Assembly (NCBI GenBank): GCA_016932895.1
Contig: JAFGCA010000589.1
Span: 1 to 5,338, forward strand
Reading direction: 5' to 3'
Length of the DNA stretch: 5,338 bases
Source: Sedimentisphaerales bacterium
Lineage (GTDB): Bacteria > Planctomycetota > Phycisphaerae > Sedimentisphaerales > SG8-4
The stretch's first letter is position 1. Every line of letters starts with the position of its first letter. Of this stretch, positions 1 through 5,147 are shown one piece after another. Below the pieces are notes generated by a model. The model was given only the letters and a program-made list of their open reading frames with translations. It was not told the DNA's origin and ran no database searches. The translations under genes were made by a program, and so were the position numbers.

Positions 1-180
1 ATGTCCCTCGGAGAAAATCCTCGGCACGCCGTCCAACAACTGCCGCTTCCACTTGGTGATCTGGTTGGCATGGACCCCGAACGTACCAGCCAACTCGCCC
101 ATCGTCCGGTCCCCTTTCACCGCCGCCAACGCCACTTTGGCCTTGAACGATCCGTTAAACTTCCTACGCTTGTTCTCCAT
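1..180 (-). CDS. IS3-family transposase OrfA (partial, N-terminal 60 residues)
   Basis: The reverse-strand frame starts MENKRRKFNGSFKAKVALAA and continues through MGELAGTFGVHANQITKWKR to FSEGH at the window edge. This is the N-terminal HTH_Tnp_1 domain of IS3-family OrfA. The family hallmarks visible are the K.R.F...FKAKVALAA.KG opening and the helix-turn-helix GVH.NQI..WK. OrfA binds the terminal repeats and is normally fused to the OrfB catalytic integrase by a -1 ribosomal frameshift. An ATG also occurs one codon upstream (183-181), but the ATG at 180-178 sits 6 bases from an AGGAGA Shine-Dalgarno (187-192) and is preferred. No stop lies within the window, so the gene runs on to the left. 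Family assignment is sure; the subgroup is not. Confidence 0.9.
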   Translation of the reverse strand, partial: MENKRRKFNGSFKAKVALAAVKGDRTMGELAGTFGVHANQITKWKRQLLDGVPRIFSEGH

Positions 181-234
181 CATTCGTCTCCTGAATACAC
201 TTGCCGTTCAGGCAACGAATCCACCTTAACCGGT

Positions 235-428: not shown

Positions 429-1034
429 TCACCTGACGCACCATTGTGGGAATCGCATCCGCAACTCTCTTCGCGATGTACGCGACAGCGGTCTTGCGAA
501 TCGGAACTTCCCCGGCAACCGTAATTGTGTGTACCCCGCGTCAACGATCTGCTGTTTCGTCATCCCTTTTGAGCCGCTGTGAAATCTCCTCCTCGCAATG
601 ACTTGGCCGTGGCGGTCACGATAGGCTCTCCTCTCGTCGCATTGGCCCAGGAAGACCCACGAGGCGGCGCGATAGACGCCTCCGGAGTGGCCCACGTTGG
701 GATCGGCGTAGGATACGAGGATGTCGGGACGTTCAAGCTTCACGAGTACTTTGATCGCATAGGAAATTGCCTCCGTCAACAGGTTTCTCCGGTGACCGTC
801 TGGGGCCCACAAACGGGAGAGCTCCCAAACGACGGCGTTGCGGCCAAGCAAGAACCTACCGATGTTCTTGTTCGCTGGAATCGCCCAACAGACTATCGCG
901 CTATCCCATGCGACATAGTGGCTCTTCCCACTTGGAACACTATGTGTATAGTGATGTTTCTCGATTATGCCGATTGCCTCACGACGCTCTTCGCCGAGAA
1001 GCAACCCCGGCTCGTCGATGTTCCACAGCAACAT
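429..1034 (-). CDS. Mom-like DNA adenine modification protein (GNAT fold)
   Basis: A 201-residue protein resembling the phage Mu Mom family, whose founder converts adenine in DNA to a methylcarbamoyl derivative and so blocks restriction. Recognisable landmarks are HHYTHSVPSGKSHYVAW (27-43), a W70-ELSRLW-76 strand, and the diagnostic SYADPNVGHSGGVYRAASW (108-126). A C-terminal HSGSKGMTKQQIVDAG segment is followed by LPGKFRFARPL. In Mom relatives the ADP..GH.G..Y.A..W block forms the acetyltransferase-like core. Length is close to that usual for the family (about 200-230). The start at 1034 has AAAGG 6-7 bases upstream. It follows the HTH gene on the same strand with overlapping frames, so the two are probably one operon. 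No restriction endonuclease is adjacent. Fold and family are inferred from motifs; the exact chemical modification is not proven. Confidence 0.8.
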   Translation of the reverse strand: MLLWNIDEPGLLLGEERREAIGIIEKHHYTHSVPSGKSHYVAWDSAIVCWAIPANKNIGRFLLGRNAVVWELSRLWAPDGHRRNLLTEAISYAIKVLVKLERPDILVSYADPNVGHSGGVYRAASWVFLGQCDERRAYRDRHGQVIARRRFHSGSKGMTKQQIVDAGYTQLRLPGKFRFARPLSRTSRRELRMRFPQWCVR

Positions 1035-1279
1035 GTCGTACCTTTCGGTGAGTCAGGTTGTTCAATGCCGTCCCAATGCATCCAGGATTGCGGCCCGAGC
1101 CACGTGAATCCTGATGCGCAGTGGATGGTCGCAATTCGGGTGTGTGGAGACGCGCCGCGTTCGATCAGGCTGACGTAGGTCCTGTGGACCCCGGCGTCGA
1201 AGCCGAGTTGTTCCTGGCTGATCTGCTTTCTGCGGCGGCAGGCTTTGAGCTCGGCGCCGACGGCTTCTTCAAGGTTCAT
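965..1279 (-). CDS. Xre/controller-type HTH regulator, probably frameshifted
   Basis: The first 45 residues are a clear Xre helix-turn-helix: AVGAELKACRRRKQISQEQL (6-25), then AGVHRTYVSLIERGASP (29-45). The wording RTYVSLIERG is typical of the controller (C) proteins of restriction-modification systems. After about residue 53 the frame stops looking like the family, and its last part merely overlaps the Mom-like gene by 70 bases. In the minus-strand frame two bases further on, codons read LRIRIHVARAAILDALGRH and end in TGA at 1064-1062. That matches the expected fifth helix (L..AL.V.PA.LL) and leaves a normal 27-base gap to the mom start. A small indel near 1115-1145 therefore probably truncated an original protein of about 71-72 residues. 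GGAG lies 7 bases before the ATG. It likely regulates itself and mom through the palindrome at 1334-1347. Confidence 0.75.
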   Translation of the reverse strand: MNLEEAVGAELKACRRRKQISQEQLGFDAGVHRTYVSLIERGASPHTRIATIHCASGFTWLGPQSWMHWDGIEQPDSPKGTTCCCGTSTSRGCFSAKSVVRQSA

Positions 1280-1333
1280 AGAGCTGCTCCATTCGATACA
1301 GGGCAGGGTACAGGGGACCGGACGGGATATCCT

Positions 1334-1347
1334 CAGACTATAGTCTG
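1334..1347. promoter_or_regulatory. C-box-like palindromic operator
   Basis: CAGACTATAGTCTG is a perfect 14-bp palindrome 55 bases upstream of the HTH start codon. Its GACT...AGTC half-sites are those known for C-boxes bound by controller proteins of several R-M systems (for example C.PvuII, C.AhdI and C.Esp1396I). It contains TATAGT on the minus strand, which could itself be a -10 box, so binding there would compete with RNA polymerase. A second, shorter palindrome, GGATATCC, abuts it at 1325-1332. The operator role is inferred. Confidence 0.6.
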
Positions 1348-1618
1348 CATGTGGAAAAAAGAGGGCGGCCGGGGGATCGCGTGGACGCGCGAAAGCGTAG
1401 AAGCGTGGATGCGTGCCGGCGGGACGCCGGAGGGTGGGTTTCGAAGCCCGGCGCTCGTGTCCCGGCCGGAGGACGGAGATTGCCGCGCTTCGCTCGGAAT
1501 GACCTGACCGCCGCGGTTCGCCCGCGAAGCAACAATCGACGGATGAACAGGGGAGTCCTCAGTTCCTGGGTTCCTGTGGTCGGTCGCCCCCGTTACGGCC
1601 CTGGCAGCGGGGATTTCC
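1348..1618. other. Non-coding spacer with dispersed-repeat remnants
   Basis: There is no convincing gene here. The long plus-strand frame through it simply runs into another frame of the nucleotidyltransferase gene and has arginine-rich, family-less translation. The region contains the hairpin at 1416-1430 and a tail at 1475-1503 (GGAGATTGCCGCGCTTCGCT, then CGGAATGAC) that resembles a commonly seen dispersed bacterial repeat. The spacer separates the divergent mom and HEPN/MNT units and holds their upstream regions. Confidence 0.5.
1416..1430. repeat. GC hairpin with GGA triloop
   Basis: CCGGCG-GGA-CGCCGG is a perfect 6-bp stem with a GGA loop, built like the hairpins at 301-315 and 360-372 and, on the opposite strand, 3545-3565. 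Confidence 0.45.
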
Positions 1619-2404: not shown

Positions 2405-3352
2405 CTACCGCCGAGGCCGCGTACGGGCCTTGTTCGCCGTTCGCTTGGGCGCTCTGCGTCCCTGCGTCTTGGCGTGCGGCTTGGTCTTTGTAGCCCGTGG
2501 CTTGTGACCGGCGGCCCGGGGCGGCTTTTTCGCCTTTCGTCGTGCGGGGCGCGTCGTGCGTGCTGCGACGGGCTTATTGTCTCGTCGTGCGGGGTGCGCC
2601 GTGCGTCCTGCGACGGGCTTCTTACTTTTGCTCTTTGCCTTTGCCTTGCTCGGCAACCGGCGCTGCGCGTAGACTTCGGCGCGGCGTTCGGGCGGCCACT
2701 CCCTGGGGAAGTTCACGCGGGCGAACTCGCCGAACCATTCGACCGCCCGGCGGTCGTAGGCGCGGGCGGCGGCGACCTCGTCGTCGCCGAAACCGCCCAG
2801 GCCGTAGTTCCTGCCCTTGTACCGGCAGTGAGCGCCCCACTTGCCCGTCCGCCGGTCCAGATAGACCCCCTTGTACTTGGAGACGGACCGGGTCTGCTTG
2901 CGCTTGTTGTACCGGTTCTGATCGCGGGTGCAGACGCGGAGATTGAAGCGGCAGTTGTTGGCCTTGTGGCCGTTCTTGTGGTCGACGATCATACCCTTGG
3001 GCGGGTTCATGATCTGGCGGTGCATGAGGATCAGCCTGCCCTTCTCCGAGCGTGCGGCGTAGCCACCGCTCAGGTGCCAGGGCCACTGGCGGAGCCATTC
3101 GTAATCGGCGGCGTCCACGTAGACGTAGCCGCCGTCGTCGAGCGGGATGCAGCGGACGTTTTCGCCCTCGGGCGGTTCGGGTCGGGGCCGGTAGTTGCGA
3201 CAGGGCACGCCGGGAACGTCGTGCATCCGGCCCGGCCATTGGGGATGGTTGCCGCACTGCGGCCAGATCGACTCGCCCGCCCAGACCAAGCGCAGCCAGC
3301 GGCACGGATCGCAGACGGCATAGACGCAATTGTGACAGGTGTACTCGGCCAT
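2405..3352 (-). CDS. HNH endonuclease with AP2 DNA-binding domain and basic tail
   Basis: A 315-residue protein in four parts. Residues 1-51 form a cysteine-rich head (C6, C9, C14, C17, C33, C51) that probably binds zinc. Residues 68-105 contain a DYEWL..W.WH segment that usually precedes HNH_3 domains. Residues 110-149 are the HNH nuclease (His111, Asp124-His125, Asn137, Asn146), and 158-216 an AP2-type DNA-binding domain (YKGVYLDRRTGKWGAH...GGF...AARAYD). From about 230 the chain is lysine/arginine/alanine/proline-rich like histone H1 tails and carries two 15-residue repeats. HNH-AP2 pairs are typical of freestanding homing-type nucleases, and many copies occur in planctomycetes (known, not searched). 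The ATG has GGGAG 4 bases upstream and lies about 77 bases from a good promoter. Biological role is unknown: selfish nuclease or domesticated DNA-binding protein. Confidence 0.85.
   Translation of the reverse strand: MAEYTCHNCVYAVCDPCRWLRLVWAGESIWPQCGNHPQWPGRMHDVPGVPCRNYRPRPEPPEGENVRCIPLDDGGYVYVDAADYEWLRQWPWHLSGGYAARSEKGRLILMHRQIMNPPKGMIVDHKNGHKANNCRFNLRVCTRDQNRYNKRKQTRSVSKYKGVYLDRRTGKWGAHCRYKGRNYGLGGFGDDEVAAARAYDRRAVEWFGEFARVNFPREWPPERRAEVYAQRRLPSKAKAKSKSKKPVAGRTAHPARRDNKPVAARTTRPARRKAKKPPRAAGHKPRATKTKPHAKTQGRRAPKRTANKARTRPRR
2538..2620. repeat. 45-bp tandem repeat in the HNH basic tail
   Basis: Two units begin at 2538 and 2583. Over their first 38 bases they differ at only three positions. 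On the minus strand they encode KPVAGRTAHPARR and KPVAARTTRPARR. The period of 45 bases keeps the reading frame, so tail length can change by unit duplication without breaking the protein. Confidence 0.8.
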
Positions 3353-4269: not shown

Positions 4270-4388
4270 GATCTGAGGTTGGCAGTCGTCCGAATCACAG
4301 CTTCGTTTGTCGCGATGGGCCGGCCGCTCCGCCGGGGCGAGAAGCGGGAGGCTCCGGGCGGTCGGGCCGGAGACAGGTGGGTGAGGAT

Positions 4389-5147
4389 ATGGACAGGCAA
4401 CGGGCATTCACACTGATCGAGCTTCTGGTCGTGGTCGCCATCATTGCTCTTCTCATGGCGGTCCTCATGCCGGCGCTGCAGCGGGTGAGAAGACAGGCCA
4501 AAGCGGTGATCTGCCAGGCACACCTCGGGCAATGGGGGCCCGTCTGGTCCATGTACTGCGAGGACAACCGCGGCTATTTTCCCAAGCGGATCTCTATCTG
4601 GCACGACGTGGTGCGCCCGTACTACTCGGACACCGAGATCTGTTTCTGCCCGATGGCGACGAAGCTGTACAGTCAGGGAGGCCGGTGGGGCTACGGCGCC
4701 TGGGAGCTGGATACCATGAGCGGCAGCCTCGGGCTGAATCAGTGGGTGCTGGATCCGCCCAAGACCAGCACGGTGGAAGGCCGGCGCGTGCCCGAGAATA
4801 TGTGGCGGACCCCCAACGTACAGAATACGAACAGTGTCCCCTTGTTTCTCGACTGCGCCACGATCGGCGTGACGCCCTACCCTGAGGACAATCCCCCGGA
4901 ATACGACGGGCAGTACTGGCCCTATACGGGCAACAACTACGACGAGATGCGACGGGTGTGCCTGAACCGGCACGACGGCTGCGTCAACAGTCTGTTCCTG
5001 GATTACAGCGTCCGCAAGATCGGGCTGAAAGAGCTGTGGACGCTGAAGTGGCATCGCAAGTACAACACCGCGGGATTCTGGACCCGGTCCGGCGGCGCCG
5101 AGCCCCAGGACTGGCCCGAGTGGATGAGAGCGTTCAAGAACTACTGA
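4389..5147 (+). CDS. Type II secretion pseudopilin-like protein (prepilin N-terminal motif, H-X9-D C-terminus)
   Basis: A 252-residue protein. Its N-terminus is a class III signal: MDRQRA then FTLIELLVVVAIIALL (7-22), with Glu11 as the conserved +5 residue. Cleavage and methylation by prepilin peptidase would fall between Ala6 and Phe7; Ala instead of Gly at -1 is tolerated but less usual. A periplasmic globular domain follows, with CEDNRGYFP and CFCPMATK blocks. The planctomycete-type ending is H195-D-G...F-L-D205, then SVRKIGLKELWTLKWH. The H-X9-DG motif appears as H-X9-DY. The start could also be GTG at 4377; the ATG at 4389 is preferred because AGGTGG lies 8 bases upstream and the leader stays short. 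It probably assembles in or with a type II secretion or pilus-like complex. The specific role is unknown. Confidence 0.85.
   Translation: MDRQRAFTLIELLVVVAIIALLMAVLMPALQRVRRQAKAVICQAHLGQWGPVWSMYCEDNRGYFPKRISIWHDVVRPYYSDTEICFCPMATKLYSQGGRWGYGAWELDTMSGSLGLNQWVLDPPKTSTVEGRRVPENMWRTPNVQNTNSVPLFLDCATIGVTPYPEDNPPEYDGQYWPYTGNNYDEMRRVCLNRHDGCVNSLFLDYSVRKIGLKELWTLKWHRKYNTAGFWTRSGGAEPQDWPEWMRAFKNY

Follow-up and report, generated by a model that had tools for sequence, protein, structure and literature searches.

A Mom-family gene from a phage-rich clade behind a conserved C-box and a broken C-protein-like regulator

Closest described systems and layout of the locus

Mom is a phage counter-defence protein. 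The C proteins of restriction-modification (R-M) systems carry a five-helix XRE HTH domain, and the C protein of bacteriophage Mu is unrelated to them. Among the open-literature papers listed on Mom, on controllers and C-boxes, and on controllers with planctomycetes or defence islands, none describes a C-box-controlled Mom in its title or the start of its abstract. In Mu, according to the passages cited, mom is activated by the transactivator C (PMC4461284) and by Com (PMC6483171). The optimal C-box of C.Esp1396I is given, in the part of PMC3758141 that is cited here, as GAC and GTC separated by TATA.

The window (the whole stretch of DNA analysed, 5,338 nucleotides) contains a Mom-family gene, an HTH remnant and a C-box-like operator. 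The features are sorted by coordinate and all are on the minus strand.

1..183, minus strand: beginning of a transposase ORF, which runs off the window (PF01527, HTH_Tnp_1 'Transposase', E 1.3e-7).
429..1034, minus strand: intact 201-aa ORF for a DNA modification enzyme of the Mom family (PF25680, phrog_1384 and PDB 8bv8 matches).
965-1279, minus strand: HTH ORF from the ORF list, 104 aa, containing RTYVSLIERG.
1035..1153, minus strand: leader between the HTH remnant and Mom.
1154..1279, minus strand: C-protein-like XRE regulator remnant; the first ~42-47 codons are conserved, the rest of the HTH domain is lost.
1305..1310, minus strand: TACCCT, a candidate -10 element with TG in front of it, located 25 nt beyond the operator.
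1329..1331, minus strand: GAT, which may be a second half-site, 4 nt beyond the palindrome (GTC-TGAR-GAY).
1336..1345, minus strand: C-box-like operator GACTATAGTC, identical to the GAC-TATA-GTC of C.Esp1396I.

The HTH ORF continues to position 965, overlapping the start of Mom in another frame. Within the leader, AAAGG is read 6 nt before the ATG of Mom. The transposase ORF, taken by the author to be IS3-type, begins 245 bp past the Mom stop. Mom occupies the place held by a methyltransferase in three related loci (L036, L037, L038). None of the seven window proteins scanned against Pfam is a methyltransferase, and their only nuclease-type matches are a HepT-like RNase and an HNH-AP2 protein from a multi-copy family; the methyltransferase and endonuclease that a type II R-M label calls for are not found among these seven. 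The initial annotation had stated that no nuclease was visible, and this stands: the 201-aa protein has no nuclease domain, and no partner nuclease is visible in the window. The DNA of positions 184-1500 has no match among plasmids and phages.

Other genes of the window are as follows. On the plus strand at 1694-2339, between the HNH gene and the C-box, overlapping ORFs encode an MntA-like nucleotidyltransferase and a HepT-like ribonuclease (PF01909, PF01934), a type VII-like toxin-antitoxin pair; NCBIfam MntA/HepT matches are below cut-off, and PADLOC gives PDC-S09 for the first protein. The HNH protein (2405-3352, minus strand) carries a CHNC motif at its N-terminus and matches AP2 below threshold. 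It has 18 and 13 matches in the Phycisphaerae genomes G001 and G002, respectively (up to 61% identity), and none in G260; it belongs to a multi-copy, homing-endonuclease-like family. Its presence upstream of the HTH in the window and in L037 was considered as a shared module and rejected because the family is multi-copy. A protein with an N-terminal methylation motif (PF07963), pseudopilin-like, is encoded at 4377-5147 (plus strand).

C-box operator and its regulator family

A perfect palindrome ahead of the HTH had been claimed from the outset. It is present: GACTATAGTC at 1336-1345 is identical to the optimal C-box GAC-TATA-GTC of C.Esp1396I (PMC3758141, in the part cited) and is the core of a longer perfect palindrome of 14 bp, CAGACTATAGTCTG, at 1334-1347. 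The window HTH has a C-box palindrome upstream of its own gene. Perfect palindromes of at least 14 bp are expected 0.49 times per window (first-order Markov simulation) and two are observed; the palindrome, not being rare by this expectation, proves nothing alone, and its significance comes from conservation.

In L036, L037 and L038, ACTATAGTC is again found 55 nt before the start of the HTH; in the window the distance is 56 nt. The alignment of these four upstream regions has ACTATAGTCTGARGAY at the same distance (55-56 nt). L036 and L037 are Phycisphaerae MAGs; L038 is an Omnitrophota MAG. The position of the second half-site is GAT or GAC in all four, and by analogy with C-protein operators the GAT of the window may be a weak second operator. 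TACCCT or TACGCT is found at about the same position in L036-L038. TACCCT is a weak candidate for a -10 element: the sigma-70 consensus scan of the minus strand at 900-1500 found no promoter. Of 397 Phycisphaerae genomes, two contain the 15-mer ACTATAGTCTGARGA (reversed control: 0), in both just upstream of one of the two best matches of the HTH-family search (G001:C89 and G260:C50). L036 comes from G001, which leaves G260 as the one independent case.

A box within one mismatch of GACTATAGTC, at most 120 nt upstream of the domain start, is found for 12 of 42 HTH-family matches; 200 shuffles gave a mean of 0.105 boxes (maximum 2), and 5 of 444 control ORFs in the same loci have a box. Three loci contribute two matches each to the 42. 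Before the count, seven loci that were also present under another id were left out, as were matches with less than 80 nt of upstream DNA and those repeating an identical final 60 nt. The box is present in all nine HTH matches with E<1e-20, the window included, at a threshold that was chosen after seeing the list. Two of the 12 box-bearing matches are on viral contigs (L109, 263-514; L110, 5980-6213). In nine further matches (L075, L076, L078, L080, L081, L085, L089, L090, L093), AACTATAGTT is found 22-23 nt upstream of the domain start and possibly represents a second operator class; for most other weaker members among the 42 matches, no site was found. Given these nine and the weaker members without a site, the box goes with one branch of the HTH family.

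The operator pattern was also searched in viral contigs. It was found in 13 stretches, none of which has an HTH-family ORF in the fetched DNA (0/13), and these occurrences are therefore put down to chance or to something unrelated. A GCGCGGCAATC-type repeat is found upstream of the C-box in the window (1478-1488, minus strand), in L036 (4922 and 5811) and in L038 (244).

The HTH had initially been described as controller-type. This holds for its family; the window copy is broken at its C-terminus. The family is C-protein-like because the full-length L036 protein matches C.BclI (E 3.7e-13), C.AhdI (E 6e-7) and 3clc, the C.Esp1396I complex (E 3e-4), in PDB. The window remnant matches PADLOC Control_protein (E 5e-8). 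Its XRE HTH domain is incomplete: Pfam matches cover only positions 2-41 of 64 (HTH_31) and 1-36 of 55 (HTH_3), and the family sequence breaks off after ..SLIERG, where full-length relatives continue SPTLGVLFRLCxALDVPPAKFVxNVQLR. This family C-terminus was found in no other frame of the window above chance level. The window HTH being truncated, a working controller in cis is unlikely.

The HTH protein search gave 69 homologues among 71 candidates, the window's own included; for the remaining 68, the alignment covers 37-71% of the query, in most cases residues 1-47. Phycisphaerales/Phycisphaerae MAGs are among the relatives that have names in public records; more distant ones are from Omnitrophota, Methylomirabilales and Chloroflexota. 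An interruption within or ahead of helix 4 is seen in about 25 of 84 HTH-family proteins, in some perhaps owing to contig ends (the script pattern gave 31; six were taken out on inspection, five because they look complete and P0199 without a judgement). Interrupted copies with other tails are thus common, and HTH remnants may adjoin many things. P0142, P0143 and P0179 all depart from the HTH sequence after PTAL and continue with similar tails (ASFPHPTSRGLRLFRHVSTLPRSNAAPH in P0143), as though one and the same short repeat had inserted at this point.

The genes beside the box and the HTH were listed in the relatives. L036: HTH, C5 cytosine methylase, HNH protein, Vsr. L037 has the same order with a NOV_C protein in place of the HNH protein. 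In L038, the HTH and C5 methylase are followed by a HATPase protein, a protein that matches nothing in Pfam, and Vsr; beyond these comes a second HTH, inverted and truncated, which has an operator of its own. The two L038 copies (5269-5595, minus strand; 498-734, plus strand) are inverted and flank the C5 methylase/HATPase/Vsr module. In two Phycisphaerae genomes, a PDC-S41 candidate defence gene is directly behind the C-box and HTH (L104, 6213-8204, E 3e-246; L105, 4286-6289, E 7e-237). In L106, the HTH is divergent from the gene of a SIR2/ThsA-like protein; in L108, a type II methyltransferase is encoded ~1 kb from the HTH on the other strand. R-M genes adjoin the HTH in L036-L038 and not in the window.

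The methylase/Vsr, PDC-S41 and SIR2 neighbours make the HTH family a defence-linked regulator family. Together with box conservation (9/9 best matches) and the C.BclI/C.AhdI match, they bear out the C-protein and C-box logic that the initial annotation had ascribed to the locus, and give the regulatory side firmer support than could be read from the sequence alone. As the first gene behind the HTH in L036-L038 is a methyltransferase, a logic of delayed expression of a toxic gene is not shown for this family.

Mom protein, its relatives and their surroundings

By its matches, the 429-1034 product belongs to the Mom family, as had been claimed; the profile search proposed at the time gave 83.4 bits for PF25680, over the curated cut-off of 27.1 (E 2e-23, residues 17-194). 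Other matches are phrog_1384 (PHROGs; Mom-like DNA modification protein; E 1e-30) and PDB 8bv8 ('Methylcarbamoylase mom'; sequence match, E 1.2e-9, residues 46-191), which we take to be the Mom of bacteriophage Mu. NCBIfam and PADLOC gave no match for this protein. Its AlphaFold2 model has a mean pLDDT of 88.2. A 38-row alignment, window included, has 54 invariant columns and the blocks HYTHSVPSGKSHY, WELSRLWAPDGH and SYADPNxGHxGGVYRAAS.

The protein search with Mom gave 785 matches among 952 candidates. Among the 120 listed of these 785, the closest full-length proteins are P0001-P0006 (75-87% identity, 201 aa each); P0080 is a 127-aa fragment, 87% identical to the window Mom; the remaining relatives have 58-68% identity. 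Viral contigs scanned with the Mom alignment A1 gave 35 loci (52-63% identity). The same alignment gave 33 pattern matches in genome contigs, none of which was confirmed as a relative. Searched as a protein, Mom matches 98 phage records, all below 60% identity, and one plasmid record (28% identity).

In Phycisphaerae, Mom is found in 17 of 397 genomes at E<=0.001 (16 over cut-off), far from the window protein (best, 37.7 bits). The window Mom has weak matches in 3 of 161 genomes of the order of G001 (25-29% identity), and alignment A1 in 1 of 161 genomes, weak again, of the order of G002, apparently the same order. P0003 has matches in 4 of the 392 genomes of the phylum searched (26-36% identity). 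The close Mom clade was found in none of the genome sets searched (genome contigs, Phycisphaerae, order, phylum); its contexts beyond that of the window are therefore deduced from protein tails.

The FastTree tree includes 159 proteins, with four distant Mom proteins from Phycisphaerae as the root. In it, the window Mom clusters with P0001-P0006 (7 proteins, support 0.92), in a clade nested within a radiation that holds all 35 viral proteins; the 142-member node above this clade (support 0.93) contains 24 of the 35, and some deeper nodes are weakly supported. Judged from this tree, the window Mom comes from a phage-rich clade. Around Mom, 120 ORFs are listed in 14 viral loci, of which 46 from 12 loci were run on PHROGs (the L007 Mom itself included). 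Among the 25 families listed of 70 matched, these neighbours include five members of DNA polymerase phrog_17, four of helicase phrog_16, three of exonuclease phrog_69, two of DNA methyltransferase phrog_498, and terminase with one each.

The initial annotation had proposed comparing homologues for a recurring layout of HTH, palindrome and Mom; this layout is not seen in Mom loci at large. The HTH family or the exact box is found in 0 of 35 viral Mom loci (L001 and L014 hold less than 70 nt upstream), and the HTH family in 0 of 22 Phycisphaerae Mom loci (at most ~1.5 kb on each side). Single-mismatch boxes are found in seven of the 35 viral loci: inside the Mom ORF in L005; 1.6-2.1 kb upstream in L009-L013, whose Mom proteins score identically, and in L017; L013 has a second one ~5 kb downstream. 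One of the 22 Phycisphaerae loci (L063) has such a box at its far end, ~1.4 kb from Mom. The missing HTH and box, which the initial annotation had named among its grounds for refutation, count against the layout for Mom in general, not for the small clade of the window. The HTH, C-box and Mom architecture is rare.

Three HTH proteins bear on that clade. Around the Mom start, a different frame of the window is matched by the P0166 tail (1107-1018, 41 bits) and, weakly when taken alone, by the P0133 tail (1065-1021, E 0.19); the two proteins align whole-length with 60% identity. On the author's back-translation, both tails can encode the Mom start MLLWN (ATG-Leu-Leu-Trp-Asn) out of frame. The HTH part does not stop at the same place in these two proteins: in one it ends after about VKSR, in the other after about LFRLCR. 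P0137 (HTH) and P0004 (Mom) have a common contig tally (8 contigs, longest 48,866), which suggests a third HTH-Mom case. By contig tally, P0001-P0003, P0005 and P0006 have no HTH partner, and no Mom protein among those listed shares a tally with P0133 or P0166.

Proposed origin, rival readings and known systems

The proposed origin is the capture of a phage-type mom by a Phycisphaerae-like bacterium, where the gene landed behind the C-box promoter of a defence (R-M) module under C-protein control. This reading is given a probability of just under 60%. The parts it joins are observed (Mom identity, C-box identity and conservation, C-protein-like family, R-M and other defence neighbours in relatives, broken window HTH, phage-rich clade). 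The Phycisphaerae-like host is suggested by the HTH relatives in Phycisphaerae MAGs and by the HNH-AP2 matches in G001 and G002. The gene would have taken the position held by a cytosine methyltransferase in the relatives, and the C-box promoter would drive it. The ancestral unit would have comprised C-box, intact controller and mom, an arrangement that would delay and self-limit the expression of a possibly harmful enzyme. Later the controller would have decayed independently in several lineages, mom being kept intact; mom would today be either unregulated or under an intact family member encoded elsewhere in the genome. The enzyme would modify adenines of the cell's own DNA, and this mark may be a solitary protection (self-protection or anti-restriction). 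A wider generalisation is put forward tentatively and is doubtful: some Phycisphaerae would have a C-protein-type defence regulon whose modification gene was exchanged for a phage-derived Mom, with the C-box promoter kept, the local controller repeatedly lost and Mom constitutive or controlled in trans.

The locus could instead be the remnant of an R-M-like system of which Mom is the modification arm, the cognate nuclease being lost or displaced beyond the transposase gene, outside the window. Behind the same C-box and HTH, L036 indeed has methyltransferase, HNH and Vsr genes and L037 and L038 have methyltransferase and Vsr, and the window ends at a transposase gene 245 bp past Mom. The 245 bp before that ORF are short for a nuclease gene, however, the 201-aa protein has no nuclease domain and the HNH-AP2 protein of the window is from a multi-copy family, not a specific partner; this origin is judged unlikely. 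That mom is decayed prophage cargo, a leftover phage gene beside an unrelated HTH remnant without regulatory link, is quite improbable: the tails of interrupted HTH ORFs on two other contigs fit the same Mom start, no phage structural family is found among seven window proteins (Pfam) and three (PHROGs), and the Mom ORF is 201 aa throughout P0001-P0006. These points are set against relatives that lie in viral contigs (35 loci) with none confirmed in genome contigs, the frequency of HTH-family fragments with unrelated tails, and GC3 values of Mom (0.67) and of the HTH remnant (0.70) below those of four other window genes (0.79-0.90).

The high conservation of the operator, the start codon and the first 42 codons would agree with a working C-protein-mom switch, in which the truncated HTH still functions or an intact controller is hidden by a frameshift or assembly error. 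Against it, no other frame of the window shows the family C-terminus above chance level, and the HTH is interrupted in P0166, P0133 and P0137 too, at positions other than that in the window. This last reading is given very little credence.

If the capture of mom behind the C-box is true, a host Mom on an R-M controller promoter would be a counter-defence gene captured by a defence regulatory network, and a host-owned Mom would predict that adenines of the host's DNA carry a bulky mark. The pair formed by GACTATAGTC and a C.BclI-like HTH is a search handle for several kinds of defence modules in planctomycetes.

Compared with known systems, the window protein is of the same family as Mu Mom (profile and direct match, residues 46-191) and differs from it in being encoded on a bacterial contig, behind a C-box. 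C.BclI, C.AhdI and C.Esp1396I are matched in sequence by a full-length relative of the window HTH, and the operator is GAC-TATA-GTC (PMC3758141, passages cited); the window protein differs in being truncated, and the downstream gene is mom, not a REase or MTase gene. In the jumbo-phage Mom-REase fusions, as presented in the part of PMC7824862 that is cited, Mom is likewise the modification arm in conflict systems; unlike them, the window has no nuclease fusion and no partner nuclease identified. RptR, in the corresponding part of PMC12255303, is likewise small and autoregulatory, and short palindromes precede the R-M and other modules with which it occurs; its site is TAGCTA, whereas the window family is C-protein-like and is associated with GACTATAGTC.
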